From positions 1-64,000 of the forward strand of contig JAQGDQ010000448.1 in assembly GCA_030141605.1 (NCBI GenBank): DNA of 64,000 bases. Reading direction: 5' to 3'. The notes under the pieces were generated by a model. That model searched no databases, was not told the DNA's origin, and saw nothing but the letters and a program-made list of their open reading frames with translations. Position 1 is the stretch's first letter, and every line of letters begins with the position of its first letter. The DNA is from Tubiluchus corallicola (taxonomy: Eukaryota > Priapulida > Priapulimorpha > Priapulimorphida > Tubiluchidae). The position numbers and the translations under genes are program-made. This document shows positions 1-58,438 of this stretch, piece by piece.

Positions 1-78
1 AATGATATTATAATTAATAGTTATATTAATATTATTAATAATATAATAATTATAATATAATAATTTTATAATAAAGTG

Positions 79-338
79 CTACCGAATCGCCTCTGTTGCC
101 GAAGCTAAACCAGATTTTTTTCAAGTTTCTGCTGAATTGGGTCGGAACTAAAGTAATTTAGAACTTCAGCAAATTGAATCGGATCAAAGCTCAGATTCGG
201 ATTTGGTTTCGAAGCTCTGGTTCTATCAAAGATTCGTGACATCCCGAAAAGAAATATTTCCTTAAACCCAAATTCGCTCTGTTCTGGTCCCCGTATGGGT
301 CTAAAATATGAAGCAGTTTTAAACATCCACAGTATCAA
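79..338 (-). repeat. Dispersed CCGAATCC-type repeat, left copy
   Basis: Mirror of 58101-58360; the outermost recognisable element of the left arm. Bases 1-78 are almost pure A/T. Confidence 0.5.
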
Positions 339-360
339 TCTCTTTGATGATATTAGAAGC

Positions 361-3149
361 TTTGTATTAAATCAGCACGTGCCATCAGTGTATATGAATA
401 TTTATATACTGTTTTCTATAGAAGTCAGTGCAATGCTTTCTATGAACGTTTAACGACGATTCACTTAACGTCGCGTTTTCCTAGAACGCACTTAAATATC
501 TAGATTCTAGGTATAAATGACTTCATACATCAATATTATTATATAATATATTTATAGAATTATAATATTAGTTCAATTTCAACTGTTCAAATGCATAAAC
601 AATACACATCTACTTACTACAAGTATGCCTTACAGCTGTTTACAAGACCTTGAATAACGGCAGCTAGTTAATTTATTTTATTAATGGTTTAATAATTTCG
701 TCAAATATTCGGGGAGTCAAAAATAGTGACTTCTCAATATTAACTAAATTAACTCCGAACAAGCATGCACGCCGACAACACAAATTCGCGAAAAATCTCT
801 CCTCGTTCACGCACCGAAGTGGTTGCGTCCTCTGTTGGTAACGCAAGAAACAAACAATAGAAAAAATAGTTCCCTTAATATCTATGTCATAGATATTATA
901 GAAATGTGCCAAATTAGTAAATTCTTTTGGTAAATTCTCCCATAAATATCACACACAGACTAGGACGGAGAATGGCCATCTGGCATGGATCTACGATTTT
1001 AAGGACCTATTTTATTTGTTGGCAACATTCCGCCCTTTTCGTTATTTCTTTCACTCTGTTATGCTACTTGAAGTACGTCATATGCACTAATTACATTGTA
1101 CATTGATGTATGTTCATTATTAAGCAGGATAAGTACTGTTAAATAGGCTGTTAGCTGCATAAATTTTCTTGAGGCTGGTCAATAAGTGGGTCGACCCATC
1201 ATCAATGCTCACTCTGAGTCATTTCATTTGCTGACTCTGATTCTGACGTTTTACAGAAAGGTCTATTTTTACTATCTAACCAGAGCCTTTATTCGATTCT
1301 GCACGACCCTAGTTATTTATACACAGAAATATTTGTTAGAAGCTGCGTTTAATCACCTCATTTGCATCTATAATGCCTAACAACACTTTAGAACACAAAA
1401 ATAGTAATACAAAAAGAGGAAGAATTAACGCGTGGGCACAAGTAATGGAGGCAATAGAAGGTACACTACAGATGTGAAGAATAACTTTTAGGCGATGTGT
1501 TTGAATTTTGAATTTTATTATAATCAATCTATGAAAAGTTATGTGATGACAGCAATATTTCAGTAAGTTGGTCTTTGGGTTTTAGCAAGGAAAATTAATT
1601 TCATGAATATGAAAACAGTAAGCATGCTTGCAATAAATAAAATAAAGATCCAATAAAATATTTGATCCATGAATAAAGCATTTATCATTTTGTTTCTGAA
1701 ATATAAGTGAATGTTTTTACTTTGTGTGGCATGTGTCCTATACATAGAAGGCATGTTTTTGTCGTGCTTTACTGAGTTCCATTTGGGTCGTTAATCGTAT
1801 TTATGATGATAATGATTATAATGGATGCACGTGAGTAATTTCCAGCCCTAAATGACCGTTATGTTTTTCATAATTATGACGAATCACGAATTGCAAGATA
1901 CTTTAGTCCTATTTGGAAACATGCGTTAACTAATTTTATGTTTTCGTTTACTCATTCCTATGTGTTTTTCGTGTGATCTCTGAAGTTTTTTTTATCACAG
2001 GTACTCTTTAATTCATAAATAGCAAAATTACCATAATCCGTATTTTTCTTTTAAAAATAAGTGCAATTTATGATACATAACATGTAAATATGTGACTGTT
2101 TTCTTCCAATTCTCTAACCAAGGAAATATAAAAAATAACTATTTCATATGCACTTAAGGAAGTAGTTAAAAAAGAAAAGTCCTTGGTACTAAACTTTACA
2201 AAAGCAAAAAGAAATAATAATTTACATTGCTTGGATACTATCTCCACCATATATATATATATATATACATATATTATATATATATAAGTACTTTTTCCTT
2301 TTTCTATTAATTATGTACAAAAATAATTGAATTTTCTATTTACTAAACGTAGGCAACTGAATAAATCAGTTATGATACGTAAGGTTTAGTCAACTATTTT
2401 TTATCTTGATGATGCATTATGTATAGCCAATTCTGTGCTTTACTATCGTTTATGCCTGCATATGTACTATAAATTTTAATTGGCATAGCACTTTTTGTTG
2501 TACTAGTGTTTGCAGTTTTAACTATTTACAATACAATTTTGTTACCTCCATTTTTTCTGTTATTCCTAATGCCTAATAAGAGATTGTTTTAATATGCATG
2601 TGAATTTACATAATATCCCCTACCCAACAATTTTAATTTATAAAGTTAGGATGGCCGGTTTAAAAAATCTTCAGTTTGTTCGCCTCTCCTTCTTTGAGTT
2701 TATATTCAATATTCATAGCAGGGGAAAACAAATCCAAATCTGAATTGAAATCTAATTATCAATTAATCTATTATCTTTGGTTGTCAAATGCAGAGTGCGC
2801 AGACCGACACTAACCATTGCGTCTTTCTTTTCCCGTGCGTTCTAATACATATATCCGCCGGACTCAATCAGTCCTGCCTTGGCCGCCATTTACTAACTAA
2901 TGGTGTAATCTTGAGCAATCAAATTCTTTCAATTGTTATATTTGTGAAAGTGTTACTGTTTCAGGAAGTTGATCATAACAAAATTTGAAAATTCCGTGCC
3001 TAGAAAAACCAGACATCTGCAGGTGGCATTCCGCTCAGGTATTATTACTTTATTAATATTTTACAGGATGGAGAATGTCAGTACTGGCATTAGAAACATG
3101 AAATTTTACCGTAATCACACCATACTGCCACTCATAAAACATGAGAGTG
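361..3149. other. Intergenic, left arm
   Basis: AT-rich, with no supported gene. The interval 2780-2890 is locally GC- and CpG-richer (GTGCGCAGACCG, TCCGCCGGACTC, GGCCGCCATTT) and could be a promoter or 5' exon region for ODC, but no clear core element was seen. Mirror at about 55290-58078. Confidence 0.5.
2250..2287. repeat. TA-rich microsatellite, left copy
   Basis: Interrupted (TA)n; the mirror is at 56152-56189. Confidence 0.85.
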
Positions 3150-3360
3150 ATGGAGGTTAATCCGGCCAGCTCAGTGTAACCCCATATTTCGAATCTAGAT
3201 GTCTGATATCTGTCCAGGTAGTTCTTGAAGTTATTCACTGAAGAAGCTTTAGCAGTAAATTCCACTCTCTGACTACTTTCTGTGAAAAAATATTTTCTAC
3301 AGTCCAATCTGGCTTTACTTTCATGATTTAGAGTGATCTCTTGGTAATGTTGATATTGGT
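3150..3360 (-). pseudogene. LINE reverse-transcriptase tail, second remnant, left copy
   Basis: On the minus strand the reading HESKARLDCRKYFFTE, then RVEF and ASSVNNFKNYLDRYQ, is the end of a LINE RT. The usual W-N-LP core is lost. It lies 320 bp from, and opposite to, the remnant at 3680. Confidence 0.62.
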
Positions 3361-3679
3361 AAATGCTTACTTTATCGGGTTAGTAAACCTGTAAGAGTTT
3401 GGGGTCGTAACTAGTGAAACTACAGGTAGAGATGTGAGTAGTGGTTGCTCTTGGGGTAGTGATTAGTGAAGGAGTGGAATAGTTTGCCTGGCAATATACC
3501 ATTGAATGGTTTAGTGACTAGCCAACAGTTGCCATTGAGGGTGTCACTCTAATTGCGCTTTATTAACATTTTATCAGTCTATGTGTCACTATAACCTTAG
3601 CAGTTATTGAAGTTGATATGTGGGAACACAAAGGAAAGCAATCAAATTATTTCTAATCTAAGCATGAGAGGGAAAGATT

Positions 3680-3997
3680 ACCCACAACTTCTCAAGGAGT
3701 TGGGACTAGTCACATAGAAATACAGGTGAAACAGGCATGATATAATACAGAGCACTTCATGGGAGAGACGCGGTGCACTTGGACAGGCACATATGAATAT
3801 AGGGTACACTGAGGACAATGGGGCATTTGTTAAAATTGCATAAGACAAAATTGCAAGTAGGATAGAGCAAGAGGCGTAACATATTTTGCCAAAGAATGAT
3901 AAATGCTTGGAACAATCTACCTTCAAGTGTATATAAGTCTACCACTATAACACAATTTAAGACTCGTTTGGACAACCATTGGCAAAATGAGCCTTAA
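3680..3997 (+). pseudogene. Non-LTR retrotransposon (LINE) reverse-transcriptase tail, left copy
   Basis: Decayed C-terminal end of a LINE ORF2. The piece KDYPQLLKELGL is followed by stops and frame changes, then by an open stretch from 3896 reading MINAWNNLPSSV and TTITQFKTRLDNHWQNEP, with a stop at 3995-3997. The W-N-x-LP-x-x-V followed by F-K-x-x-LD signature is typical of the end of CR1/jockey-like reverse transcriptases. No upstream RT domain is seen, so it is a 5'-truncated copy. Confidence 0.7.
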
Positions 3998-3999
3998 AA

Positions 4000-5394
4000 A
4001 ATTATTAATCCCATTTGGCCTTCGTGGGAACAATAGAGTGTAGCAATGATGTAAAATTCTGCCTCTTGATATGCTGATAGTGCCTTTTTCAAGTTTATTT
4101 ACTATTTATAGCGTTTTTGGAAAAGTAGTACTAGAAGGCATAAATACCATATTTGCTAAATCCCTATCGACTGATTATGATTTATGGATTATGAGCATTT
4201 TATAAAAAAAAACGTGGCTTAAAACCTGAATCATGGCGGTATTACACTAACATGGAAAGTGATTATAAAATTTTATGCCAAACATTATAAAAATGCAAGT
4301 GTGGCACAGTCATTGAATTAACTGCCACACTTTTACAGAGAGAAATTGTCAGTCTGCAAATACTTCCAAATTGTGTCACTCAATGGGTGTTTTTGCCATA
4401 AAATTGAATGCAGTTTTTGTATTGTATTACGTGGCACCCACTGTTTGCCATACAGCAGACCATAGCATTTGTATTAGAACATGGCACCCATTCTTTGCTT
4501 CGCTTTTTGGTCAAGTTTAGCAATCTCTCTTTCTGCCCCATGCAAGGCATTTAAAGCTACAGGCGCAGCAAAAAATGTTAGGTCATAATAGCAGGGATGT
4601 TACTGAAAATGAAATTACAAATCGGAACCGAAATTTATGAAACACACAACCAATAACGGAATCGAACTGAAATCATTTTTGCAAAACCAACTACTATCAA
4701 ATCTGAAAATTAATTTTGAAATAAATAAAATACTTTGTGTTTGCTTATTTGCTTATATTTGCTCTAGTACAACCTCGATGAGGTAGCTAGGCAAAAAGTC
4801 CTAATCAAAAAAAGTACAACAATGTTTATTGTTAAAGATCATAAAACTTCAAGAACATTGACACATTTCATTTTGTTATTGTGATTTTGGCTGTATTTCA
4901 TAAATTACAAAATTAGACTTGGTTTTATTCAAGTTACACTTCGATATTTCTGTTGATTGTGCCTGGAGACCTTAAAGCTTCACAGTTGCCAACACTGGAG
5001 ATTACCCTAAAAAGTTACAAAATGCTACAAAAGTTAAATAAACGACATTTACGCTTTATTTGAACTATTTTCGCAAAAAATTTTAGTGATTTTTAACGTC
5101 TAGGAGAAAAAATAAGCATTCGTCTGCGAAACTTGATACTTTTTGACGAAAGCGTAACTACACTGAAAGTGAAATCGTCAAACCGTTTCGGTAACATGTG
5201 AAAAAGATTGCTTTTGAATTTGCCTCGCTTATAGGAATACCAACTTTGCAGGTTATACATTTCTCTGGTAGTTTTTGCCTTGGATATTTGTGAAATCTAA
5301 TCACTGCCTAAAAGTATGTAATTGCCAGTGAACCAGTGCGGGCTGAATTAATATGTTCCTTTTGTACATGCTAAATTTTTTGTGCTTCTTTGCA
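4000..5394. other. Intergenic, left arm, repeat-derived
   Basis: Holds a 10-bp stem (AAGTGTGGCA / TGCCACACTT, about 4298-4334), a partial tandem duplication around 4420-4500 (TGGCACCCACTGTTTGCC against TGGCACCCATTCTTTGCT) and the diverged repeat at 4585-4720. No gene. Mirror at about 53045-54439. Confidence 0.45.
4585..4720 (+). repeat. Diverged CCGAATCC-type repeat, left arm
   Basis: Starts GCAGGGATGTTACTGAAAAT and contains AATCGGAACCGAAATT and GGAATCGAACTGAAATC. Mirror at about 53719-53854. The distal end was not recognised. Confidence 0.35.
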
Positions 5395-5517
5395 GGGGGG
5401 CGTTTTCTACAGTACAGACCCTGAGGGAGGCTGCCGAGCGGTAACGCTTGACTACAACGCCTTGAGGATCAGGGAGCCTAGCTGATATTTGCTCAAGCAG
5501 CAGGCATTTTATTACAG
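5395..5517 (+). other. Candidate exon upstream of ODC, left copy
   Basis: Preceded by a strong acceptor (TGCTTCTTTGCAG) and followed by a weak donor (CAG|GTTTGC). The local GC content is well above the surroundings. Read in phase 0 it gives GGVFYSTDPEGGCRAVTLDY and then NALRIREPS and a stop, which looks protein-like. The simplest view is an ODC 5' non-coding exon joined to 6107-6263. The alternative is the terminal coding exon of an unrecognised small gene; the GG-x2-F/Y-ST-x-P-x-GG-x-R pattern only faintly recalls 4E-BP. Confidence 0.4.
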
Positions 5518-6106
5518 GTTTGCATTACTTACTTCTATATGTGTGGTGTATTGTTTATACCTTTGTAATTATTGTAGCTGTAAATTGTATGTACCTTTTT
5601 GTGCACTTTGTTTGTAGCTTTATAAAACTAATAGCAAACAACATAACATATGCTAGTTTAGCAGCAGTAGCTTAGTTCATCAGTTGTCATAGTTTACCAT
5701 GAAATTTATCATTTCATAGAATAATAAGTGTCTGCATGTGAGTAACCATTTGTGAGGAAATCTGCAGGTAAAACAGATCGGTTGCAAATACAACTTTGCA
5801 AATGAACCTTTCCATTTGAAGGTGATTTTCGTTCACATTGACTTAGCCAAACCGTAACTGAAGAAACTTGGAACTGTGAATGATGTACCAGCATTCCCAT
5901 GAGACTGAGTGCTCTATGAACTGCTTTATTAAGATTTGCAAAATTTAGCACATGAAAATTTAGCACAAGAGCATTTAGCAAAAGTAATTTTTAAAACTAA
6001 ACTATTTTTAATCTAAAATTTCAGAATTTGTAGTAGCATTGTAATTAAACTTATTGTTAATTTGATCAGGTATTACTCTACTTATGGTTGCAAAACTTTT
6101 TTTCAG

Positions 6107-6167
6107 GTTATTAGGGATCACTTAGCAAATCTATTACACTACATAGGCATTTCCTTCACCTTGTAAA
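6107..6167 (+). other. ODC 5' UTR part of first coding exon, left copy
   Basis: Begins after CTTTTTTTCAG (6106) and runs to the ATG at 6168 without another ATG. The acceptor shows that ODC has at least one upstream non-coding exon. Confidence 0.55.
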
Positions 6168-9100
6168 ATGAAGAACATTACTTTGGACAACATTTCCATT
6201 GCCTCGCTAAACAAACCTATTGATAGTGTAATTACTGAGCATATCGCTCATAACCACGGCAATGTAAGTTTGCGTAACATTTATAATAATACATATGGCC
6301 ATTACAATCTTCTTGCTGTTACACATTTTTGTGTTTAACACTTTGTGCAATGGTATATATAATTGGGTTATATAGTAACCATTATATTATAAATGGTATA
6401 CATAATGGGCTTTATTTTTTGGATAAATACTCTTGATATTGTAGCAATCTGCCAATTAAAGCAAAAATTTACACATTCAACATAAAATAATTTTTGTGTT
6501 GAATGTATAAATTTTTGCTTTAATTGGCAGATTTGAAAGTATTTTAAACTACAAGCTACTTTTTACTGTAATAAATGGCAACTTATAGATGGTTTCATAT
6601 ACCAAAATATGTTTAGGACACATTTGCATTACCTGAATGTTTTGTTTTTGTGATTATCTAGGAGGATCCGTTTTATGTGGTTGATATTAGTGACATCATC
6701 AGAAAATGTAAACAGTGGGAGGAGAAGATGCCCCGTGTTGACCCATATTATGGTAATTATTTCTAATTCATTTTGTCTGATCATAGATATTTTTTGAAGA
6801 TTGGCTAAATCTGTGTCTCATTGTTTAATCATCATGAAGTATGCCAGTATGACTTGATTAATATTAATATTAAAAGCCTAAGGAATTAAACACATATTCT
6901 GATATAAAGTTCTTATTCATAGTCCAGTCGACATTTTTGACAAGAATTTGTAAAGCTATTGCTTTAACACCGGGCCTCGAATTCATGCATTTTTATTAGA
7001 TTTTCAGTTTTGAACCTATTTTGGCTTTTAATGTTAATATCATAATTGTCCAGGCAGTTCCGGTTAATTTTTTATTATTAAATGTCACCGTGTTTTAAAA
7101 TCTAACAAAGTATGTTTTAGTACTAATAGTTTTAGTTTTGCAAAGCCTCCAATACATGCAAAAATACAACTTAACTGAAACCATTTTATTCTAGCTGTGA
7201 AATGTAATGACGGAGCTGGGGTTCTTCGCATTCTTGCCAACATGGGGGTGGGATTTGATTGTGCCAGTCGTTCAGAGATTGCCACCGTTTTAGACCTTGG
7301 TGTCCCTCCAGAGAGAATAATTTTTGCAAATCCCTGCAAAATGGCATCACACATCAAGTTTGCAAGGCTGAACAACATCCGCCGAATGACATTTGACAAT
7401 GAGCTCGAGCTGCATAAAATTAAGCGATTATATCCGGAATCAGAGTAAGCTGTGATTTCTATATTTGCCTATACTTTTTCTGAGTTGTAAACTGCGAATA
7501 TAACTGCATCTATAGGCTGTGCGGAAGAACTGAGTTTCTGTTGTGCAGTGCAGTGCAGTTTAGTGTATTAGCCTCTGACATTGTTCTTAGTGGAATTCAT
7601 GTGTGTTCTTGAAAACATTGTGACTTGCATAGTGTGTGATTTTGTTTATTTGTTTCATGATTAACTAATCCCTTTTAGATATGTCAGTCCTAATGTAGGG
7701 TGTAATTACTAATACCATGTCATTGAATGCAAAAATTAGCCCTTTAAAGTACTGTAGTCTGTTTACATTTTCGATTTTACACTAATCAGTAATGTGTTCT
7801 TAGTCGTGAATTTCATACAAAACTTGGCATGGCCTCTTGAATGTCAGTTATATAATACAAAATTTGCAGTTCACGTGGGAGACAGCAGTTTCATATCACA
7901 CTCTAAATTGTTTTATACAGGCTTGTTATTCGCATTGCCACAGATGACAGCAAGGCACAATGTCAGCTGAGCATGAAATTTGGCATACCATGGGAAAAAG
8001 CTTATCATTTGCTTCGCGTGGCTAAAGACCTCGAGTTAAACGTGATTGGTGTAAGGTATGTCATTGTTTTGTTGTAATTAATTATTCATCGTAACTAATT
8101 CATATACATGGTGAAGACTAATATTAAAAGTATAGGATGATTCAAATATACTTTCATAAATATGTCAGAAATGGCACTTCGTGTATTCTGGTTCTCTTTT
8201 TTATTCTTACTTTTCTAACCTCAACCTCCTGATTTGTCAGTTTTAACTTTTATTTTAGAAAGATAATTAATAATTAATGAATAAATAATTTAGATATTGT
8301 ATTGGTAATTCTTTATAGAAATTTATAAGCCAATATTGGGGAACTGTGTAACTTTTTTAATCCTTTTTTGCGTAAGTTTTAGTATAAACAGTCTTATTCT
8401 TATTTTCCATTAGCTTTCATGTTGGCAGTGGATGTTATGATCCCTCTGCTTGGAGTGCTGCTATTGCTAATGCCAAGAAAGTGTTTGGGTTTGGCAAAGA
8501 AGTTGGATATAATTTTGATTTCTTAGACATTGGTGGTGGGTATCCTGGACATGACAAAGCGCGTATCAGCTTTGACGAGGTATAGAATTAGTTATTTGCT
8601 TTAATTCACTACAAATTATTTATATCAACAATAGCCCGTTAAACTTTAAGTTTGGCAAAAAAATGTCGTGAATAATAAATAAACAGTACTGTTTAAAAGC
8701 TTACAGTGACAGTGGAAAACATTATTGCACTGCAACAGCTTACTATTTGCAAATTGAATGTATCGAGTGCAAAAGTTAGATACATATGTTTTACATTACT
8801 TTTAATCACTTTTGTAACACTGCTCCACGCAATAAAATGTTTATTTTTGTAATAAAAACTAATTCTGGATAGACTTCCTGTAATAAGGATATGATTACCT
8901 GAACCTTTTTAATTCTGATAATATTATTGACTAACTAGAGAGCATTGCTACCAGTTCTCAGCTATTTACAAGGCGCTGTATTAATTATCCGGCTCGACTA
9001 CTTTGATTAGATATGCGGGTTTAAACATACAGTCTTGCAGAAATGTAGATGAATTATAGATATAATCATTTTTAGTAGTCTGCCTCCAACTATTTACAAC

Positions 9101-12100
9101 TGCAAATGTTTCCAAGGACTGTATCCTTTCCGTGTTAAAAGAAACCATACTATGTAGGAATTCTAATCTACCTGACTTATATTAATTATTGTCAACGACA
9201 CTAAGTATTGCTGCAAAATGTGTTATCTGCCTTGGACTCACCACCATGCGCATCACTCAGATATCTTTTAGTCATAGCGCAGTCATTCTCCGAAAATTCT
9301 CCAGGTGCCACAGTGTGTTGACAGCAGTTGTAGTTCGGTTTCATCTCTGTGACACTATTTTCATTGCAGTAGCAAACAGTGTTTAATAAAAAAAATTCTG
9401 TGTTAAACTGTTTTTGCATTTTCACTGTAAGTGAACCGTGACAAACAGTGGGGTCTAGAAACTGCCATGGTGTGTGAGATTTTGCTCCATTATTTCTGTT
9501 ATTCTAACAGGAATAACAATTTAGTGATTAAATGAAATAACAGTAAATTTTATTTAACAGCATTGTGCAAGCTAATAGTTCAGTATCAACCTATTAACAA
9601 GGATTAGAAAGTAAAATGTAGTGACAACAACATTTTTTTATTTTGTTACTTGAGGTTTGTGATGAAGTAAACTTGTCACTGGCAAAACATTTTCCTGCTG
9701 GCAGTGGAGTACGTGTGATTGCTGAACCAGGACGCTACTTTGTGGCATCTGCATTTACTTTAGCTGTTAACATCATTGCAAAAAAAGTTGGAGAAACCTC
9801 TGATTCGACAGGTTTGTTAGAGTTTTTTTAGTACTCCAATGTTGGTAAATGCAATATACGGTAATTCTTGGCCTAAAAATTCTTCATTCAGTGACAACCT
9901 GTTTCTGTCACTTTTTCTCTCAGAAAAAATGAAACATAACAGCAAATGTTATGTGTGATGGCAAATTTGTTTGTTGTGCTGGCACTAGGGGTGGGACAAA
10001 GCTTAAATTTCCAAAACCGAATCAAATCCGAATCACATTTTTTAAGTTTCCGAAACCGAACTGAAGTCAAGTGTTTAATTCACTCTTAATTTTCAATACC
10101 TGACGAATCTGAATCTTGCAACTTAATTCCAATTAGGTTTTCCATCTTAGGATCTGTGTGCAGTTAGTTGCAATGGATGTTTCAATGAAACATTTATAAA
10201 ACAGTCTTGTATAATGTCATTGCTAAACACAATAAAGTTCTCTTGTTCAGATCTTGTTTTTGCCTTATGTTTAGTTTGTTTTGATCTTTATTCATTGCAA
10301 TTTAGAAAATAATGCTATTACTGGGCAAAATGTGAGTGGTACTATGTAAAAAGAATTCAGATAAATTTTGGCACACTTCATGACTGCATTTTCTTCTTTG
10401 TAACTAAATTAATAACATTCAGAAAGTAAAATTAAATTTAAGCTAAAATATTGTTTGTGTTCAGCAGCACAATAACCGAAATGTTGTGCGTAAGTTGGGA
10501 CACCATTGAAAAAAATTAGCATCGGTCGGACCGCAGACGAATAATTTATGCGGTACATAACTTTTTACGGAACTTCACGTTTTGATAAGAAGAGAAATTT
10601 AAAATAAGTGATTAAAATAAGCCGATCTGTTCCTTAACTGGGTAAACATGAATTATGGAGGCTGCTTCACATTTTTTTGCGTAATCTAAGCTCCGGTTCG
10701 GATCCTGTTGCGAAACTCTGGAGTAGCAAAGCTTCCTATCATGCCTAGTTGGCACTTCGCTCCCTGTAAAGAAGATGCTACTTTGGCCCTGTGTGAGTTA
10801 GTATTAGCTTAAGCTACTTACCAAGCTATTCATTATTACATTTTGGATAACCAAAATTATTTTATTGCATTAATAACGAGCTTGCAGTTTGCAAGGCAGT
10901 AAGTTCCTGCAACTACAAAAGCTTTTGTTTACCAAGAATAATGTTATTACTAAAGTGAAAGCTGTCTTTTTGCAAGTTAGGAATTCAGACATTGCTAAGT
11001 CATTTGGAAATTGATTGCAGGAAATGGTATTACCAACATGTACTACGTAAATGATGGTGTGTATGGGTCATTCAATTGCTTGCTTTATGATCATGCGGAA
11101 ATTTATCCTTATCATCTTTTGGTATGTATATCTGTTGAACTTTCGCAATTTTACTGAAAGCCAATTTGTTTAAAAATTAGAGTTAGAGTTATGAGCTAAC
11201 AGCTCATAAAATGTGTTTGTTGAAGCTCTATTTGTGTTAAAGTGAAAGTAGAAACTTTAAACTATAAGTTAAACATTTAATTGTAATTGAAATCAAAGTC
11301 AAAAATGCTATTTAATAACAGTGTGCCACTTGTGATGACACAATTGAACTCTCTCACTGATTACATTGAGGAATTCGAAATTGTCTGAAGTGCCTCTTAA
11401 TGAGTTGCTAAAATGAGTCTTTCTTACCGTGGAGTGCACAGTATCATCCTCCATGCAAAATTTCGTAAATGATTTCTGGTTTGTCTCGACTTGGAGCTTG
11501 AAACTTGACCAGTTGTGGAACCTATACGGGAGTCATAATTGTGTCTACATACAGTTTGCTTGCTCTAAAAAATATGGCTTGCTTTTTCAGTCTAGAGTTT
11601 TACTAAATCAACTGTGTGCAAATATTTGTCTTTTTGTGAGAATGTAGTACAATTTTGGTAAGCTTTCTAATTGATAAATAGTGCTTACTCTTTGTGTTTT
11701 TCTTGTAACTTTATTTTGATGAATAATCTTTTGTTTTGTAATCCCCTATGAAGCCCTGGATAGGGCAAAATGTGTATGTTGTTAATAAAAATACTTAGTG
11801 AGACTGCACATGTACTTAGTAATGTTGCTTATGTTGCTTCGCATTAAATTTAATAATTACAATATATTTTATTGAACGAATAAGTGAACAAATGAAAGTG
11901 TGCTTCATGTACATTTTACAAAAATCTACTGTTGCCGAAGAGAATATTTTTTGTGGGATAAGAAAATGTAGTAAATATTTTTAGGGCCATGGCAAACCTT
12001 TGTACAGCAGCAGCGTATGGGGACCAACTTGTGATGGCTTGGACCGCATTCTGGAACACGTTAACCTGCCTCAGCTTCCTGTGGGTGGTTGGCTGCTGTT

Positions 12101-13217
12101 TAGTGATATGGGAGCTTACACAATTTCTGCTGGATCCTGCTTCAATGGATTTCAGAAACCAAGACTGGAATATTTCATCAACGACAATGATAGGTACCAT
12201 TCTGCAAGCTCAAATGAGCTGTTTTGCTGTGCGACTATGTTTAAAGTCTGTACAAGAATTGTTGCTAAACAGCAAATTGTTGAAATTTTCTTTACGTATA
12301 TGCACTCTGGTAAATAATTGTGTCCGTTTCGTACTATCCCTTTATACCTCTAATAAATGTAGTAAACTTTGATATCAGTAAATAAGCATGACATGAATAT
12401 AAATGTGCCTATTTTAAGGCAAGTAACTTTGTAATGCCTGTAAGGACGTACTTGTTACTCCTTCACTGATGCAGCAAGTTTCTAATTTGTTGAGCTGCAT
12501 TCAGAATTTAATACTTCTCATCTTTGCTATGCACCTTTTCACAACACAGTTGTAAAGAACTTAGGCCAAATGATGCTTTACTGTCATTTTATTTACTGAG
12601 GTGCATGATTACCAAAGGATGGCAAAAATGGCTAAGTTCAAAAGTTTTTATTTCCAATTCCATTGCTCAATATTTTAAAAATTTAATTTTAGGCTTTTAC
12701 GTTGTAACTCATCTTGGATACTGCTAAAGCATAAAATTTTGCCTTTTTAAATGAAAATAAAAATGTTATTTTATCAGCATAAATTTTGAGTTTTACAAAA
12801 GAATCAGAAACATAATAAAGTAGGCTACAAGATTAATGGGTACCAGGAATAATATGCGCAGCTGTAAGTGAACATCTACTGGTTGAATTGAATTTCTGCC
12901 AGACTTTACGGAACACGTATTTGTTGAACCATATTTACAGAATCTGAGCGTTTAATTACAATACTATGTAAGAGACTAACATGTTGGTATGTTTACTATA
13001 CTTTTACATCCATATTGAGTCTTATGTATAAGATGCTAAGTAACTTCCCTGCATGTGGTATCAAAATTCAAACAGGATTGTTGTATTTTATAGATGCTAT
13101 TGGAGTACAGAGACCGAAGATTTGTGTGATGATGTGGCTTCTCTGTCGTCTGTCGACTCTGGCTTGGAAATGGACGAACTTGCTGCTTGTCTCGCTGAGT
13201 CAGCCTATGTTCGCTGA
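6168..13217 (+). CDS. ODC1: Ornithine decarboxylase, left copy (9 coding exons)
   Basis: Pyridoxal-phosphate enzyme converting ornithine to putrescine, the entry step of polyamine synthesis in the cytosol. CDS = join(6168..6263, 6662..6752, 7195..7444, 7921..8055, 8414..8579, 9655..9811, 11021..11121, 11985..12193, 13094..13217), 442 codons plus stop; all junctions are GT-AG and phases close. Visible family residues: PLP lysine in YYAVKCND (Lys65), FHVGSG (His193), GGGYPG (about 231), EPGRY (Glu270), catalytic cysteine in [11 protein letters not shown] (Cys348) and MGAYT (Tyr377). All catalytic positions are kept, so this is a true ODC and not an antizyme inhibitor. It is slightly shorter than the human enzyme (461). 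The last exon is rich in D, E, S and T, like the degradation-promoting tail of animal ODCs. The first coding exon is preceded by an acceptor at 6106, so a 5' non-coding exon lies upstream. Intron 6 contains a MITE-like element. Confidence 0.95.
6446..6533 (+). other. Near-perfect 88-nt hairpin in ODC intron 1, left copy
   Basis: AATCTGCCAATTAAAGCAAA starts the 5' arm and TTTGCTTTAATTGGCAGATT ends the 3' arm. The arms pair over about 40 bp with one or two mismatches and a tiny AT loop. It could be a small MITE or a precursor of a small RNA. Nothing coding. Confidence 0.75.
9986..10747 (+). mobile_element. Non-autonomous hAT-like element (MITE) in ODC intron 6, left copy
   Basis: A 762 bp segment starting TAGGGGTGGGACAAAGC and ending GCTTCCTATCATGCCTA, weak inverted termini. 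It is flanked by 8 bp near-identical repeats (GCTGGCAC at 9978-9985, GTTGGCAC at 10748-10755). It holds the motif CCGAATCAAATCCGAATCAC, which recurs in diverged form at 58.1-58.4 kb, 59.7-59.9 kb and 4.6 kb. No coding capacity. The boundaries are inferred from the repeats only. Confidence 0.5.
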
Positions 13218-16068
13218 CTAGTCGTGGCATGTGTGTAATCTAATTGCATGTAAGCACTTGCATTACAACTACAATTGCTGTGTTTCTACATGTCCAGGTT
13301 TCATGAAAATTTATATCATAATTATTTAATTTGCAGAATAATTATATTCATGTATTATATTGGATGTATGGATTATTTGATACACGCATTGTTAAGTACT
13401 GTGCCTGAAAAGATTTTGTAAAAATATGTTTGTCTATATGAATTTTAAAATCTACACTACAATAAATGTTTAGTCTATAATGCATGTTTTGTATAATTGC
13501 AGTCACAATTTGTCAATATCAATAATTAAAACGCCCTTTTAATTGATTTTGTGAGAAATAGTTAATCAAACGTACATTATTATTAATAAGATTGTTGAAC
13601 TTTAAACAATTGTGTATAACAGGCACCAAAACATTTGTTGTATGCAAGTGCTTACTGTGCATTCGATTACTATACCTAAGAGTTGATGCTTACACATTGT
13701 AACAATTTTATGTTCGTATTGTTTAGTACAGTGATCCTGCATAATTTGCACGAAATGCCAATTTCCATATTCTTAGTTAACTGAAACTAGGAAAGTGAAA
13801 TCTTGGATAATTCAAAAAGTGTTGCATAGAGCTTTGTAACACTTTGTGGTAACTTTGTTTGTTAAAGAAAAATTGCACACTTTATTTAATTATGCTTGTA
13901 GTTATAACCATTCGTTGAGTATGAACAATTAATGTACAAGATAATGACGGGATTTTCCTTGATAAACACTTGTACCAGGGTTGTTCACTACTCAACCTAA
14001 ATGGAAGCATGCTTTATTGACTACAAAGTAATGTTGTTATTATTAATTCCGGTGAATGTCAGGAAGTAACGGGTTTAGCCTTTGTAAAATTGGGTAACAA
14101 CAACCTGGCGATGATGTTAGAAACTAATACTTTGTGAAAATACAATTGTATGAATATGTTAATCTCTGAAATTCTCTTTTTTTGGGAAAAACAGCTTTTT
14201 GATGCTGTTGTATTGCTAGTTGTTGTTGCCTTTTCATAGGTGGAAGCACTTCCATGTAATAATTGTTCCTTTAGAGATTTTACATTTGGCTACCTGATAT
14301 GTAGGTAGATTAGAAAACATCCATTTTAAATGCCTGCTAATGGATTTCAAGTTTGATGGCTGTGTGGCTGGTAAAATAATAAAATACTGACAATGTTGAG
14401 GCATTCGAGTATTCTATTTTTTACAAACGTGTTCTAGATCTATATTTTTTTGACAATGAAAATTTAACTTTAGCACTCTGATATGTTACTTAAAGGAAGG
14501 TTTTGCTTGTAAATTAGAAAGGCTGTGTTGTCGGACACCATAAATAGGTCCAGTGTCTTGTAATGCACTGCAACCATTTGGTAACTTCTCAGCATTAACA
14601 AATAGGCCTTACAGAGTAATGTTAAATAATAACAATAAAAATAATAATAGTAATCAAATTAATATCAACGGATAATGAACTTGTATGACTTATTGCTAGC
14701 TGTAATAACAAAATGTAAGAACAACAGAAATGGTAGTATGCAGAAGAGCAAGAAGTACTATTAAGATTTGTCTGACAGAGGTGTAGTGTTGAACCTATGC
14801 TATAATTTCCAAATGTGAAAAGCGAGGTAGTTATCTATTGCACACCATAAGAAAAAACTGTTGTTCTAGTGAGACTGAGACCTCTATCATTGCTAGAGTT
14901 TCACGATAGTTTTGTAAGTATTCTGCTGAAAATAAGCTTCAACAAGTCGAAGAATGTGGTGTTGACACATCACTGTGAACTTATTTTCAAGTTTTGTGAG
15001 AAAATTTTCCATTGTGATAATCAGCTCCTTTGTGTTGATTAAAGCAGTTACTCATTAGACTTAAATGTGAAGAGGTTGACATCTAAATAAACACAATCAT
15101 CATAATTATGCCCATTACATCTATTGCATACATTGGGCAGGTAGAATTCTAAAATGAAAGAAATCTGCCCTCGAGACGGTAAACACAGCACTAATCCAGC
15201 AAAAAACTAGACGCTGCTATGTCATTGGTTTTCCAGCACCACTTCCGAGCTAAGTGCAATCAATGATAAGGTAATCAATGTCAATTTCGCTGCTAAGCCA
15301 AAGTTGAAGGAAAAAACAGAAGAACTTAAAAGGTTTCTCACATTGCTGTTTCTGTACAGCTCAATGAGCTGATAGCCTGTTTGCATTTATGACATGCGTT
15401 GATTTCTTTAATGTTTTTTTTGCGAACATCGCCGGGATTCAGACATTCCGAGTTGATCGTACATAAAATGTTATCGTATGTTATTTACTAAATAAAGACT
15501 GGAATTTATGCGTTCATTACTAGTTACCCTATTTGTTATTATTTATAGAATTGAAACGTGCGGACAGAATCCTGTCTTGATGGGTTCCACACCACATTCA
15601 ATGTCTCTAAGCACTGTCGTTTAATGATATTGGCCTGAAACACCAGCAAGTAAATATATGACGACAGGATACTTTTCCGGTATGAAATCACTATGGGGGT
15701 GCGACATTTGTTTATCTTGATCTTTGACCTGTTGAAGTAGCCTTTGTGTTTCCATGTCTTCCAGAATTACCCCTGTGCCAAGTGTGGTGATTGTACGTGT
15801 GGCTTCATTTATTTTAATATATACAGTACACATAGATGCGACTAAATGCCTTACCCATGTATCGACCATGCATTATAATTGGGATTGATAGTAATGAGAT
15901 TAGAAATTAGGGTATGGGTCAGAGTTAGCATGAAATAAGCTCTGTCCATGTAATGCATGTGCAATAATCTGTACAATGACAAAATGACTTTTACTGGCAG
16001 ACTGTTTAAGCTTCTAGCTATTTTCATAAATATTGATCACCCATTTTTCTATTTTTTTTAATTTTTAG
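13218..16068. other. ODC 3' region and ODC-FBXL15 intergenic, left arm
   Basis: ODC 3' UTR with an AATAAA at about 13460. The rest is AT-rich. An 82-codon minus-strand open frame (15621-15869) begins with an ATG soon followed by GGGTAAGG, a donor-like site; it matches no family I recognise and may be chance. Mirror at about 42371-45222. Confidence 0.45.
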
Positions 16069-17961
16069 ATGGCAGGATTAGCTGATGTCTGTGATGTAAA
16101 CTACTGTTTGCTTGATCTCCCCTGGGAAGATGTCCTTTGCCGATACATATTGCCATATCTGACTCTGTCTGATTTGTTCAAACTACGCCATGTATGCATT
16201 GCTGCCAGAGACTTGACATCGTTTTACTTTAAAAAACTTATCAACCTAGACCTAACACATTGCAATGGTCGCCTGTCAGCAGAAGCCTTTAAAGCAATTA
16301 CCAATGATAATGAATTAATACAAAAATTAGTGTTGCTTAACTGCAAGGACTGGTTAACCGATACTACTCTTGCTAATGTGATACAAAGATGTTCACTGTT
16401 GAAATATATCAACTTGGCTGCTTGCTCCAGGTTGACAAATGCTACAGTGCAAAGACTAGCCGACAATTGCCAATATCTGCAGTGTGTGATTTTACGGAAC
16501 TGTCACTGGCTCACTGAAGCATCATTAATGGTGCTTGTTATGAACTGTAGGGATATTAGGCACCTCGACTTAGAATCATGTTGGGACATAACCGACCTTG
16601 CAGTTCACACTATTGTTACTACTTGTAAAAGGTAAAGTCATTCTGAAAAATTACAGCTTTTGAGTAGTATTATTGTAGTTGTATAAATGCTGATGTAGGT
16701 TTTACGGTATAGTACAACTTTTTTTTGTCAATTACCTATGTTTAATTTGGCATTGTTTCACCTGTATGTTACCATTTGAAATCAAAATGTAACGACATGC
16801 AACAATTTTTTGCTGCAAAGCTATTGTGTGTAAAAACTTGTGCAAGGACTGGAGCATTTTAGCATTAAGTGTAATAGAATCTATCCAAATAAAATTTGAT
16901 ACTAAATTACAAATCTGCATTAAGTCCTTAAGTATTACAGTCATTATCATGGACTATGACTGGCTCCCACCACCCATCTCATTCTTTAAAAAGTATAGCA
17001 CTGACTAAGATAGTTTGCCAAATTGACCTCTGTTCTTGATGATTTAGATAGCAATATACCAAACTGAATCCTGGAAAAAATATAAGAATGCATTTATGCA
17101 GAAATATTTGTACTGAAAAGCTCTTTTAGCTCAGGATAAAACTAGAGCCTGTACTGGCTAAGTTGTAATGAGCACAGATTAATGAGTACTGCAACCAGCA
17201 TAACACAGACTCATAAGTGCAATAATCGGAGACATTAATGCCAGTGGACCCTTTATAACAAATACTCAAATTTATGGTGTTTTAGTTTGGAATTTCTATT
17301 TTCCACAGCATTTTTCATTACAATGCAATGCATCTTATTTTAATTTAGCTTACAGTGTCTGTCACTATGCAAAATCTATGGCATAACTGATGCATCTCTA
17401 AGAGCAATTGCGATGAGTGGCATTCCACTGAATGAGCTTAACATATGTGGCTGCTGGCGAGTCACTGACGATTCAGTAAGGTAGATATATAAAATTATGA
17501 GCATTGAAACTAAGAATTGGGTTGTACTTTGTAGACTGTCAAGTCCTTACACAATAAAAAATAATTTTTATTTTTAACCAATAGGCAATTTAGTAGCTGA
17601 ATCTTTGCATTAACTTTTGATGCTGACTCAAGCTTGATGTGACCAAATCTGTAAATATTGTACAGTATGTTTATATATATAGTTGAGTACATTATCTCTC
17701 CATTGCTTTATTTGATTACCGGCTTGTTGCAACTACTACCTATACATTTATATTTGCAGACTTTTAGCTGAGTATTGCAAGACATTAAAGCTATTACATG
17801 TAAGCGATTGCCGAGACGTCACTGAAAGGACGCTGGCTCGAATGCGTATCAATGGAGTCCTCATAGACAGGCCAATGCTAAAATACATCCCTCTTCATGG
17901 AGCTGCTAGCGCTGATCAATATCTGGGAATCCTTAGGACTAAATTAAATCCACAGATTTAG
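16069..17961 (+). CDS. FBXL15: F-box/LRR protein, FBXL15-like, left copy
   Basis: Predicted substrate receptor of an SCF ubiquitin ligase; in vertebrates FBXL15 targets Smurf1 in BMP signalling. CDS = join(16069..16631, 17349..17480, 17760..17961), 298 codons plus stop, close to the usual FBXL15 length of about 300. An F-box starts at about residue 14 (LPWEDVL, then RYILPYLTLSDLFKL). Cysteine-containing leucine-rich repeats follow from about residue 56 (LINLDLTHC, YINLAACSRLT, HLDLESCWDIT, ELNICGCWRVT). The end (LLAEYCKTLK, LARMRINGVLIDRP) matches the FBXL15-specific C terminus. A splice acceptor (TTTTTAG) directly abuts the ATG, so transcription begins further upstream. It is convergent with the GCKR-like gene 1.3 kb downstream. 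Confidence 0.87.
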
Positions 17962-19278
17962 GTGCAACTTCATTTTAGTTGTACTGAAGTTGTTCATTTT
18001 ATTTGTCTTTACTGCGGTAGAAAAAAGGGACAGTCAAGTGGATAATTTAGCTAAATATATAATGCTTAAGACTTTTCTATTTTTCATCATTATTAACTGA
18101 ATTTTTGATAATGTGGTTATCATAAGTGATTACGTAGCCTTTATTTAAGGCAACAGGTATTTGTGTTCCACTGCAGGAAAGCTGAAAGGTCTAAAACTTA
18201 ATTTTTTCGTGTCTTTCAGTTCTTGTGATCATCTAAGTCGTCATATAGACAATCTTTTTACTAGTTCACTTTTTAAAAACCGTTATTTGGCCGTGTGTGA
18301 AGAATAACATGGCATTAATGCTTGATCAGCATTGCAGTCTATCTAAATGAGAATAATATGATAAAAGATTTACTGTGCTGTTTATTTCTTAGAGAATTTA
18401 TAAAAATTCAGTAAACATGAGTGGACAATTTTATTATCACAATAACTAGCTTTTGTTCTATAATTCATACGCCAACAATCTATTATTGCAAATATTGTTT
18501 TATATCATAAAATATATTAAGCTATTACAACAGATGTTGAAAAATATTTAATATATTTAAAATTATAAAATTTATTAAATGTAAGTTGAATAAATATACA
18601 AATTAGATATCGTAATATGTAAACATGTGGCAGTTTGAATTTGAAAGTAAAATGTGTTACTTTATATAAAAAACATTTCTGCACTGTACAGTTCCCATAG
18701 GTTTTTTGGAAGAGTAAAGTTTACAACCAATCTCTTCACAATACATGCACCTCTTTACAAAGAAGCTGGCCAGGTAATGAGTTCACATTTGCAAACCTAA
18801 CAAATTATTCACATTTCTTTGGAATTTGTGCATGTGCTCGAAGAATTAATAAAGTTAGTTTTTGCCTATCCAGGAACTTCCGATTGTCTATCCGATTGTG
18901 CTATTTTACACTCAGCTACTGAAGTACAGATGACCGTCCTAATCTTTGGTTCCTTCTTAAGCATTAACTGTGCCATGTGAACAGGTATTGACTGCAGTAC
19001 CATCAAAATGGCAACCGGAACAATCTATCGGAAAAATTCTACAAAGATTATGCATGCAAAAGCTGTCTAAGACTACATTAAATAATCATTTCACTATTGT
19101 AATAAATGAGAGCTCTTCATTTCAATGGTATGTACAATATGTACAATATCCGCCTTCCTGTTAGTCGTGTCGGTTAAGGGGTAAAAACCATTCTATCAAC
19201 TACCCCATGATCAGTAGCAAAACAAGGCTCATGTCTTGGGTGCTGTGGTGCTGTCTTTGTGCTTACCACCTTATCAAC
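17962..19278. other. Convergent 3' region between FBXL15-like and GCKR-like genes, left arm
   Basis: AT-rich 3' UTR/intergenic sequence; nothing coding was recognised. Mirror at about 39159-40477. Confidence 0.5.
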
Positions 19279-19947
19279 CTATTGCAAAGTCTGCAAGGCA
19301 TCACAAACTGTTAAGCTTTGTGAGGAGACAAGTCATGCAAGTGTTCCACATTTCAAAAAGTAGCTAGTTCATTAAATTTAATTAATGCCAGCAATTTCAG
19401 ACAATTCTCGAAAAAAATGCTGATAAAATTTTAACAACTTTGAAAAATGTTAAATTATAATTAAGTGTTTGCAAATAATTAAAAGCGGGAGCGAGGCTGC
19501 TCGATTGCTTACTATAATGAGTTCGACACAAAATACAGTACCATAAAATGCAAAAGCATGTTGATCACACTTATTTTTCTGTTATAAACAAGCAAACACA
19601 ACACTTAACAATGGAACAGCTTTACTCTGTAAGATATGATATGACTAGTCTTACCTTGTGTACATGTCTAGCTTTGCTAACATGATCATCAATGGATTTG
19701 CTCAACAATGCTGACACATCTTCCACACAATAGATGGATTGCAGTAATGCCTGCTCAGCTGTTGCTTTAGAGCATTTACATATGTCACTGATAATTGTTA
19801 TTGCTCGTTTATATAACTTCGTATTGCTGCAAAAAATCCACTATAGCTAAAGTTCAAACTGATTCAAATAATTCTTATTTTTTAAATATTCCTCAAGTGG
19901 CAGGTACTGTTTACCTGTTGAGCTGCTGATATTCTCTCAACATATTG

Positions 19948-19982
<35 letters not shown>

Positions 19983-21437: not shown

Positions 21438-21473
<36 letters not shown>

Positions 21474-30055: not shown

Positions 30056-30063
30056 CCAATTAG
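30056..30063 (+). repeat. hAT target-site duplication, left copy
   Basis: CCAATTAG, identical to 32810-32817; 8 bp is the hAT-typical length. Confidence 0.93.
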
Positions 30064-32809: not shown

Positions 32810-32817
32810 CCAATTAG
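32810..32817 (+). repeat. hAT target-site duplication, right copy
   Basis: CCAATTAG directly after the terminal CCCCTG of the element; the left arm has only one copy at the matching place. Confidence 0.93.
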
Positions 32818-36963: not shown

Positions 36964-36966
<3 letters not shown>

Positions 36967-37000
<34 letters not shown>

Positions 37001-37020
37001 CGCGCGTGCGTGCATGTGTG
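36967..37020 (+). repeat. GT microsatellite, right copy
   Basis: (TG)n followed by a CGTGCGCGCGTG stretch; mirror of the left CA tract with a different interruption pattern. Confidence 0.93.

Positions 37021-38454: not shown

Positions 38455-38457
<3 letters not shown>

Positions 38458-38488
<31 letters not shown>
38458..38488. repeat. TA microsatellite, right copy
   Basis: Mirror of 19949-19980. Confidence 0.92.
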
Positions 38489-38489
<1 letters not shown>

Positions 38490-40477
38490 CAATATGTTGA
38501 GAGAATATCAGCAGCTCAACAGGTAAACAGTACCTGCCACTTGAGGAATATTTAAAAAATAAGAATTATTTGAATCAGTTTGAACTTTAGCTATAGTGGA
38601 TTTTTTGCAGCAATACGAAGTTATATAAACGAGCAATAACAATTATCAGTGACATATGTAAATGCTCTAAAGCAACAGCTGAGCAGGCATTACTGCAATC
38701 CATCTATTGTGTGGAAGATGTGTCAGCATTGTTGAGCAAATCCATTGATGATCATGTTAGCAAAGCTAGACATGTACACAAGGTAAGACTAGTCATATCA
38801 TATCTTACAGAGTAAAGCTGTTCCATTGTTAAGTGTTGTGTTTGCTTGTTTATAACAGAAAAATAAGTGTGATCAACATGCTTTTGCATTTTATGGTACT
38901 GTATTTTGTGTCGAACTCATTATAGTAAGCAATCGAGCAGCCTCGCTCCCGCTTTTAATTATTTGCAAACACTTAATTATAATTTAACATTTTTCAAAGT
39001 TGTTAAAATTTTATCAGCATTTTTTTCGAGAATTGTCTGAAATTGCTGGCATTAATTAAATTTAATGAACTAGCTACTTTTTGAAATGTGGAACACTTGC
39101 ATGACTTGTCTCCTCACAAAGCTTAACAGTTTGTGATGCCTTGCAGACTTTGCAATAGGTTGATAAGGTGGTAAGCACAAAGACAGCACCACAGCACCCA
39201 AGACATGAGCCTTGTTTTGCTACTGATCATGGGGTAGTTGATAGAATGGTTTTTACCCCTTAACCGACACGACTAACAGGAAGGCGGATATTGTACATAT
39301 TGTACATACCATTGAAATGAAGAGCTCTCATTTATTACAATAGTGAAATGATTATTTAATGTAGTCTTAGACAGCTTTTGCATGCATAATCTTTGTAGAA
39401 TTTTTCCGATAGATTGTTCCGGTTGCCATTTTGATGGTACTGCAGTCAATACCTGTTCACATGGCACAGTTAATGCTTAAGAAGGAACCAAAGATTAGGA
39501 CGGTCATCTGTACTTCAGTAGCTGAGTGTAAAATAGCACAATCGGATAGACAATCGGAAGTTCCTGGATAGGGAAAAACTAACTTTATTAATTCTTCGAG
39601 CACATGCACAAATTCCAAAGAAATGTGAATAATTTGTTAGGTTTGCAAATGTGAACTCATTACCTGGCCAGCTTCTTTGTAAAGAGGTGCATGTATTGTG
39701 AAGAGATTGGTTGTAAACTTTACTCTTCCAAAAAACCTATGGGAACTGTACAGTGCAGAAATGTTTTTTATATAAAGTAACACATTTTACTTTCAAATTC
39801 AAACTGCCACATGTTTACATATTACGATATCTAATTTGTATATTTATTCAACTTACATTTAATAAATTTTATAATTTTAAATATATTAAATATTTTTCAA
39901 CATCTGTTGTAATAGCTTAATATATTTTATGATATAAAACAATCTATTTGCAATAATAGATTGTTGGCTTATGAATTATAGAACAAAAGCTAGTTATTGT
40001 GATAATAAAATTGTCCACTCATGTTTACTGAATTTTTATAAATTCTCTAAGAAATAAACAGCACAGTAAATCTTTTATCATATTATTCTCATTTAGATAG
40101 ACTGCAATGCTGATCAAGCATTAATGCCATGTTATTCTTCACACACGGCCAAATAACGGTTTTTAAAAAGTGAACTAGTAAAAAGATTGTCTATATGACG
40201 ACTTAGATGATCACAAGAACTGAAAGACACGAAAAAATTAAGTTTTAGACCTTTCAGCTTTCCTGCAGTGGAACACAAATACCTGTTGCCTTAAATAAAG
40301 GCTACGTAATCACTTATGATAACCACATTATCAAAAATTCAGTTAATAATGATGAAAAATAGAAAAGTCTTAAGCATTATATATTTAGCTAAATTATCCA
40401 CTTGACTGTCCCTTTTTTCTACCGCAGTAAAGACAAATAAAATGAACAACTTCAGTACAACTAAAATGAAGTTGCAC

Positions 40478-55078: not shown

Positions 55079-55289
55079 ACCAATATCAACATTACCAAGA
55101 GATCACTCTAAATCATGAAAGTAAAGCCAGATTGGACTGTAGAAAATATTTTTTCACAGAAAGTAGTCAGAGAGTGGAATTTACTGCTAAAGCTTCTTCA
55201 GTGAATAACTTCAAGAACTACCTGGACAGATATCAGACATCTAGATTCGAAATATGGGGTTACACTGAGCTGGCCGGATTAACCTCCAT
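55079..55289 (+). pseudogene. LINE reverse-transcriptase tail, second remnant, right copy
   Basis: Mirror of 3150-3360. Confidence 0.6.
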
Positions 55290-58100
55290 CACTCTCATGT
55301 TTTATGAGTGGCAGTATGGTGTGATTACGGTAAAATTTCATGTTTCTAATGCCAGTACTGACATTCTCCATCCTGTAAAATATTAATAAAGTAATAATAC
55401 CTGAGCGGAATGCCACCTGCAGATGTCTGGTTTTTCTAGGCACGGAATTTTCAAATTTTGTTATGATCAACTTCCTGAAACAGTAACACTTTCACAAATA
55501 TAACAATTGAAAGAATTTGATTGCTCAAGATTACACCATTAGTTAGTAAATGGCGGCCAAGGCAGGACTGATTGAGTCCGGCGGATATATGTATTAGAAC
55601 GCACGGGAAAAGAAAGACGCAATGGTTAGTGTCGGTCTGCGCACTCTGCATTTGACAACCAAAGATAATAGATTAATTGATAATTAGATTTCAATTCAGA
55701 TTTGGATTTGTTTTCCCCTGCTATGAATATTGAATATAAACTCAAAGAAGGAGAGGCGAACAAACTGAAGATTTTTTAAACCGGCCATCCTAACTTTATA
55801 AATTAAAATTGTTGGGTAGGGGATATTATGTAAATTCACATGCATATTAAAACAATCTCTTATTAGGCATTAGGAATAACAGAAAAAATGGAGGTAACAA
55901 AATTGTATTGTAAATAGTTAAAACTGCAAACACTAGTACAACAAAAAGTGCTATGCCAATTAAAATTTATAGTACATATGCAGGCATAAACGATAGTAAA
56001 GCACAGAATTGGCTATACATAATGCATCATCAAGATAAAAAATAGTTGACTAAACCTTACGTATCATAACTGATTTATTCAGTTGCCTACGTTTAGTAAA
56101 TAGAAAATTCAATTATTTTTGTACATAATTAATAGAAAAAGGAAAAAGTACTTATATATATATAATATATGTATATATATATATATATATGGTGGAGATA
56201 GTATCCAAGCAATGTAAATTATTATTTCTTTTTGCTTTTGTAAAGTTTAGTACCAAGGACTTTTCTTTTTTAACTACTTCCTTAAGTGCATATGAAATAG
56301 TTATTTTTTATATTTCCTTGGTTAGAGAATTGGAAGAAAACAGTCACATATTTACATGTTATGTATCATAAATTGCACTTATTTTTAAAAGAAAAATACG
56401 GATTATGGTAATTTTGCTATTTATGAATTAAAGAGTACCTGTGATAAAAAAAACTTCAGAGATCACACGAAAAACACATAGGAATGAGTAAACGAAAACA
56501 TAAAATTAGTTAACGCATGTTTCCAAATAGGACTAAAGTATCTTGCAATTCGTGATTCGTCATAATTATGAAAAACATAACGGTCATTTAGGGCTGGAAA
56601 TTACTCACGTGCATCCATTATAATCATTATCATCATAAATACGATTAACGACCCAAATGGAACTCAGTAAAGCACGACAAAAACATGCCTTCTATGTATA
56701 GGACACATGCCACACAAAGTAAAAACATTCACTTATATTTCAGAAACAAAATGATAAATGCTTTATTCATGGATCAAATATTTTATTGGATCTTTATTTT
56801 ATTTATTGCAAGCATGCTTACTGTTTTCATATTCATGAAATTAATTTTCCTTGCTAAAACCCAAAGACCAACTTACTGAAATATTGCTGTCATCACATAA
56901 CTTTTCATAGATTGATTATAATAAAATTCAAAATTCAAACACATCGCCTAAAAGTTATTCTTCACATCTGTAGTGTACCTTCTATTGCCTCCATTACTTG
57001 TGCCCACGCGTTAATTCTTCCTCTTTTTGTATTACTATTTTTGTGTTCTAAAGTGTTGTTAGGCATTATAGATGCAAATGAGGTGATTAAACGCAGCTTC
57101 TAACAAATATTTCTGTGTATAAATAACTAGGGTCGTGCAGAATCGAATAAAGGCTCTGGTTAGATAGTAAAAATAGACCTTTCTGTAAAACGTCAGAATC
57201 AGAGTCAGCAAATGAAATGACTCAGAGTGAGCATTGATGATGGGTCGACCCACTTATTGACCAGCCTCAAGAAAATTTATGCAGCTAACAGCCTATTTAA
57301 CAGTACTTATCCTGCTTAATAATGAACATACATCAATGTACAATGTAATTAGTGCATATGACGTACTTCAAGTAGCATAACAGAGTGAAAGAAATAACGA
57401 AAAGGGCGGAATGTTGCCAACAAATAAAATAGGTCCTTAAAATCGTAGATCCATGCCAGATGGCCATTCTCCGTCCTAGTCTGTGTGTGATATTTATGGG
57501 AGAATTTACCAAAAGAATTTACTAATTTGGCACATTTCTATAATATCTATGACATAGATATTAAGGGAACTATTTTTTCTATTGTTTGTTTCTTGCGTTA
57601 CCAACAGAGGACGCAACCACTTCGGTGCGTGAACGAGGAGAGATTTTTCGCGAATTTGTGTTGTCGGCGTGCATGCTTGTTCGGAGTTAATTTAGTTAAT
57701 ATTGAGAAGTCACTATTTTTGACTCCCCGAATATTTGACGAAATTATTAAACCATTAATAAAATAAATTAACTAGCTGCCGTTATTCAAGGTCTTGTAAA
57801 CAGCTGTAAGGCATACTTGTAGTAAGTAGATGTGTATTGTTTATGCATTTGAACAGTTGAAATTGAACTAATATTATAATTCTATAAATATATTATATAA
57901 TAATATTGATGTATGAAGTCATTTATACCTAGAATCTAGATATTTAAGTGCGTTCTAGGAAAACGCGACGTTAAGTGAATCGTCGTTAAACGTTCATAGA
58001 AAGCATTGCACTGACTTCTATAGAAAACAGTATATAAATATTCATATACACTGATGGCACGTGCTGATTTAATACAAAGCTTCTAATATCATCAAAGAGA

Positions 58101-58360
58101 TTGATACTGTGGATGTTTAAAACTGCTTCATATTTTAGACCCATACGGGGACCAGAACAGAGCGAATTTGGGTTTAAGGAAATATTTCTTTTCGGGATGT
58201 CACGAATCTTTGATAGAACCAGAGCTTCGAAACCAAATCCGAATCTGAGCTTTGATCCGATTCAATTTGCTGAAGTTCTAAATTACTTTAGTTCCGACCC
58301 AATTCAGCAGAAACTTGAAAAAAATCTGGTTTAGCTTCGGCAACAGAGGCGATTCGGTAG
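58101..58360 (+). repeat. Dispersed CCGAATCC-type repeat (hAT-like MITE family), right copy
   Basis: Contains GGGATGTCACGAA and the phrases AAACCAAATCCGAATCTGAG and TTCCGACCCAATTCAG. Related wording occurs at 59690-59870 (opposite terminus GTGACATCCCTA) and about 4590-4700 (CAGGGATGTTAC). The mirror copy is at 79-338 in the left arm. It has an open frame of 77 codons, but the sequence is repeat-derived and I do not call a gene. Confidence 0.5.
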
Positions 58361-58438
58361 CACTTTATTATAAAATTATTATATTATAATTATTATATTA
58401 TTAATAATATTAATATAACTATTAATTATAATATCAGT

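Follow-up and report, generated by a model that had tools for sequence, protein, structure and literature searches.

A 58-kb mirror structure at the start of a Tubiluchus corallicola contig is very probably an assembly artefact around a chimeric fold-back join

Does the start of contig C2326 of T. corallicola hold a chromosomal palindrome, or was its mirror image made on the way from DNA to assembly? The window analysed here, 64,000 nucleotides long, comprises bases 1-64000 of this contig (192,478 bp), which belongs to an assembly of 343.5 Mb in 2,344 contigs. An earlier note had described a 58-kb fold-back with arms of about 26 kb and a spacer of about 2.9 kb, and self-BLAST bore this architecture out. 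The main inverted repeat pairs 3-25646 with 58436-32809 (99.80% identity over 25,647 columns, with 29 mismatches and 22 gap positions) and an inner block pairs 25638-26385 with 30063-29317 at 97.7% identity, a pairing of the arms well above chance level. Taken as a whole, 1-26370 and 58436-29332 are reverse complements of each other with about 99.8% identity. The left arm (1-26370, plus strand), whose base 1 is the start of the contig, is followed by a non-palindromic spacer of 2,961 bp (26371-29331), the right end of which overlaps the start of contig C1050, and then by the right arm (29332-58436, minus strand), which repeats the left arm in reverse complement and additionally carries a hAT insertion. 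The arm homology stops at 26370/29332, the last 15 seemingly paired bases being part of the join, and a unique flank (58437-192478) continues the right arm outward. The 58-kb mirror structure is present in the assembled sequence, yet it is very probably an artefact of assembly at a contig end.

Where a chromosomal palindrome would have an outer boundary, the left arm of C2326 starts at contig base 1-3. The right edge is no breakpoint either, since position 58436 pairs with contig base 3 and is the mirror of the contig start. In a search of the assembly, flank segment 60000-60600 was single copy at high identity, and so was the spacer, its overlap with C1050 excepted. For the arm pieces 1-9000 and 17000-23000, the assembly returned the two copies in C2326 and no third one, and telomere-like repeats, looked for at contig starts, were not found there. 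A search for COX1 likewise gave no match. The flank also contains, at 60983-61480, a single-ORF gene with a CS domain and an acidic C-terminus that resembles p23/PTGES3.

A linear alternative to the mirror order was provided by contig C1050 (303,464 bp), which turned up in a search with 12000-30063 that was otherwise dominated by matches to a dispersed repeat. C1050 begins inside the spacer: its bases 15-239 are identical to window 29109-29335 and then diverge exactly at the join, beyond which C1050 runs into different sequence that contains 5' exons of GCKR (C1050:1573-304, minus strand, human residues 28-96 and 100-120). The following exons lie in the spacer, where an ORF at 27906-28154 (minus strand) includes the preceding GCKR exon (FRALFIPHESKEDSPHAGAEDLVKV) and 26747-26920 (minus strand) carries the exon for human residues about 165-226, the two together covering residues about 130-226. 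The 3' exons (residues about 229-549) occupy 19712-24987 of the left arm, again on the minus strand. GCKR is therefore collinear on the minus strand from C1050 through the spacer into the left arm, and the concatenated exons matched glucokinase regulatory protein structures in order in a PDB search (E 8e-77), which is independent of the human GCKR probe. Because the exons are collinear and C1050 is identical with the spacer, left arm, spacer and C1050 represent the native order, and at the level of sequence the linear arrangement is shown to run from the flank (192478 to 58437) through arm and spacer into C1050. Adjoining GCKR, C1050:3880-4359 contains an ORF with MGNCFS and an SH3 domain, like the N-terminus of a Src-family kinase. 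The spacer segment 28029-28540 has copies of 68-82% similarity on many contigs, including C1050:2510-2785; as its initial portion overlaps the ORF of the GCKR exon, it may represent either a duplicated fragment or an intragenic repeat.

The join of the right arm interrupts GCKR, and the mirror copy of the left-arm exons (33468-38725, plus strand) is truncated at its 5' end, beginning at about human residue 229, so that GCKR is incomplete in both arms. The earlier note had placed ODC, FBXL15-like and GCKR-like genes with all introns in each arm; Pfam confirmed the C-terminal domain of ODC, the FBXL15-like ORF gave an LRR match only, below threshold, and for GCKR the claim of complete genes failed.

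At 29332-29335, C2326 departs from the linear order. The chimeric join at this point brings together the linear sequence seen in C1050 and the reverse-complemented left arm, which have a 4-bp microhomology (ATTT) in common; upstream of it there is patchy similarity, including CTGTTAACA. Four base pairs, even with the patchy similarity, are too little for an assembler overlap, and therefore a chimeric fold-back molecule probably carries the join. Chimeras of multiple displacement amplification (MDA) are inverted with an intervening deletion in 85% of cases, the segments lying mostly less than 10 kb apart, and most joins have 2-21 nt of complementarity (Lasken and Stockwell, 2007; PMC1855051). 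The join in C2326 shows these features: its second segment is inverted, 2.96 kb (<10 kb) is skipped, and the complementarity of 4 bp lies within that range, as do the 8 bp at the join of a second contig, C2340. Unlike those chimeras, the present case was seen in an assembly and not in reads, its arms far exceed one junction read, and MDA is here an inferred source.

In the arm alignment, 41 SNPs were counted across 26,370 bp (0.16%, a count that leaves out four mismatches at the junction, 26371-26376), together with a few short indels. The SNPs are clustered along the arms, with 0 differences in the outermost 7.3 kb (P about 2e-6 for such a tract under uniform SNPs). The right arm alone carries a 2.75-kb hAT-type insertion (30064-32809, plus strand), in which Pfam identified a DUF4371 domain and a hAT dimerisation domain; its terminal inverted repeats begin CAGTGGCG/CAGGGGCG, its 8-bp target-site duplication (CCAATTAG) lies at 30056-30063 and 32810-32817, and the left arm holds a clean empty site. 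These data agree with the earlier description of arms that differ by SNPs and one transposon, and the differences look allelic, the SNPs and the hAT insertion presumably separating two alleles and not the arms of a palindrome. The inner 750 bp were considered as an unusually old segment on account of their 97.7% identity, an idea that was dropped, since the join itself accounts for four of the mismatches and most others fall in one 265-bp cluster adjoining the hAT site. Being too long and too different to derive from one molecule, the 26-kb arms are best read as two alleles beside a chimeric join. The earlier statement that the arm differences exclude an artefact of one molecule consequently stands for the arms and not for the junction: a single chimeric molecule may underlie the latter, with ordinary reads of the two alleles making up the arms.

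C2326 is not alone in the assembly. Eight terminal fold-backs are known, and all eight are anchored at a contig start. C2326, C1667, C126 and C1426 were found without selection for contig-start position, the last three having first been noticed as mirror pairs among repeat matches in unrelated searches. Contig starts were also probed directly, and 3 of 31 informative ones were fold-backs (C60, C2340 and C1950): a first, evenly spaced sample of 14 informative starts yielded C60 and C2340, the same search exposing C866, and a second sample of 17, mostly from large contigs, yielded C1950. The palindrome runs end to end in C1667 and C126 and over the first 40 kb or so of C1426, with 98.2-100% arm identity in the sampled pieces and non-palindromic centres of 2.5, 2.3 and 2.2 kb, respectively. 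Together with C2340, C60 and C866, these contigs have arms that are 97.9-100% identical and centres of 1.6-2.6 kb. C866 is palindromic over the whole contig, and C2340, C60 and C1950 are palindromic at their starts. A fixed spacer length across fold-backs was entertained and abandoned, C1950 having almost no spacer.

Two of these contigs, C2340 and C866, carry one and the same sequence or close variants of it (97-99.6%) and turn at different points. C2340:1-3961 tracks C866:105-4245 and then reverses along C866:1681-1, its join having an 8-bp microhomology (TTTTAACT), whereas C866 continues to 10355 before its own turn. Similarly, C1950 forks from C2066 as C2326 forks from C1050. Random chimeras would produce fold-backs that turn at different places in one locus, every one with a linear sister contig beside it; an inherited palindrome would not. 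For a real palindrome the join should be specific to its locus, and the one in C2326 is instead one of eight found at contig starts.

Based on these findings, we propose that a chimeric fold-back molecule arose in library preparation, phi29 MDA being the likeliest source, although another source of fold-backs is possible. After copying the arm and the spacer, a strand would have jumped from about linear position 29335 to about 26370 on the opposite strand by means of the 4-bp microhomology, which would result in an inverted join that skips 2.96 kb. The assembler may then have walked through the chimeric join, reads of the second allele would have filled the other arm, and the contig would have ended in the allele-identical tract, where allelic paths merge and become inseparable. 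The clustering of spacers at 1.6-3.0 kb in most fold-backs counts against this proposal, since it is not by itself predicted by the distance statistics of MDA, which fall with distance. Previous studies describe comparable artefacts. Palindromic long reads are produced after whole-genome amplification and, if uncorrected, give rise to false inverted duplications that reach assemblies, as probably in our case (Warris et al., 2018, PMC6218980; Vecchi et al., 2026, PMC13265396). Unamplified nanopore DNA also yields fold-back artefacts, in which the read turns back along the opposite strand of its own locus, one example having about 2 kb between the segments; the tool definition used in that work requires segments within 200 bp, in contrast to the skip of 2.96 kb in C2326 (Heinz et al., 2026; PMC12870357).

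Of the other readings, the one that survives best is a real, heterozygous fold-back inverted duplication, formed in vivo by template switching in replication or by breakage-fusion, with the other chromosome linear through C1050. C1050 and the order of GCKR would, alone, also fit this reading, which explains the linear alternative, and template switching in vivo likewise leaves a physical join with microhomology; SNPs and one transposon do distinguish the arms. However, its outer edge lies at the contig start, similar structures at 3 of 31 sampled starts are far too frequent for real rearrangements, and one locus folds at different points in C2340 and C866. It also predicts three arm copies where two were found, a collapsed third copy being possible. 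We regard it as improbable, and we give the same small chance to the form in which a real heterozygous fold-back truncates GCKR as one among many located at fragment ends of somatic or germline DNA. If real, the structure would be a fresh fold-back caught together with its linear parent allele.

Less probable still is a pure misjoin, in which the assembler placed two allelic contigs head to head with no chimeric molecule involved. The arms differ as alleles do (0.16% and one hAT insertion), their outermost 7.3 kb are identical as at the closure of a bubble, and the assembly has many redundant contigs. Nevertheless, the two sides of the join have only 4 bp plus patchy similarity in common and no overlap on which to join, and a short-homology join of the same kind was seen again in C2340. 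The earlier note had left a real fold-back, gene conversion between arms and a haplotype misjoin as three options; the evidence favours the third in that the structure is very probably an artefact, and its mechanism needs to be modified, since a 4-bp join is too short for a haplotype overlap. We give almost no credence to an ancient palindrome with arms kept alike by gene conversion in the manner of primate Y chromosomes, since the high arm identity, patchy differences and identical outer tract that it would explain are set against a single-copy order still present in the genome, as the linear GCKR through C1050 shows, a GCKR truncated in both copies and an arm end that is a contig end. Real large palindromes, such as those of the ape Y and the chromosome-scale ones of Botryllus schlosseri (PMC12448946), also have long inverted arms flanking a spacer, but they lie inside chromosomes and were checked by depth, whereas the one in C2326 lies at a contig start and has a linear alternative.

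The preferred reading, an assembly artefact around a chimeric join, has a consequence for the use of these data. Because the assembly has many terminal fold-backs and much redundancy, caution is needed with duplications at contig ends: neither the apparent duplications of ODC, the FBXL15-like gene and GCKR nor an inverted repeat or a truncated gene close to a contig end should be read as biology. The assembly is highly redundant. Six contigs (C2107, C2074, C2072, C1974, C1831 and C1752) share two markers at a constant spacing of 88.6 kb and are 100% identical over the 1 kb sampled between them, C2254, C628 and C457 match one another exactly at a shared coordinate (267300-268300), and many of the contig starts probed recur on other contigs at 98-100%.

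Two dispersed repeats were also observed in the left arm. The first, of about 520 bp (4590-5110), has dozens of genomic copies that are 74-79% identical. The second, of about 500 bp (25348-25860), has at least 30 genomic copies at 79-84% identity, some of which adjoin arrays of a unit of about 83 bp (C524, C1588 and C828).
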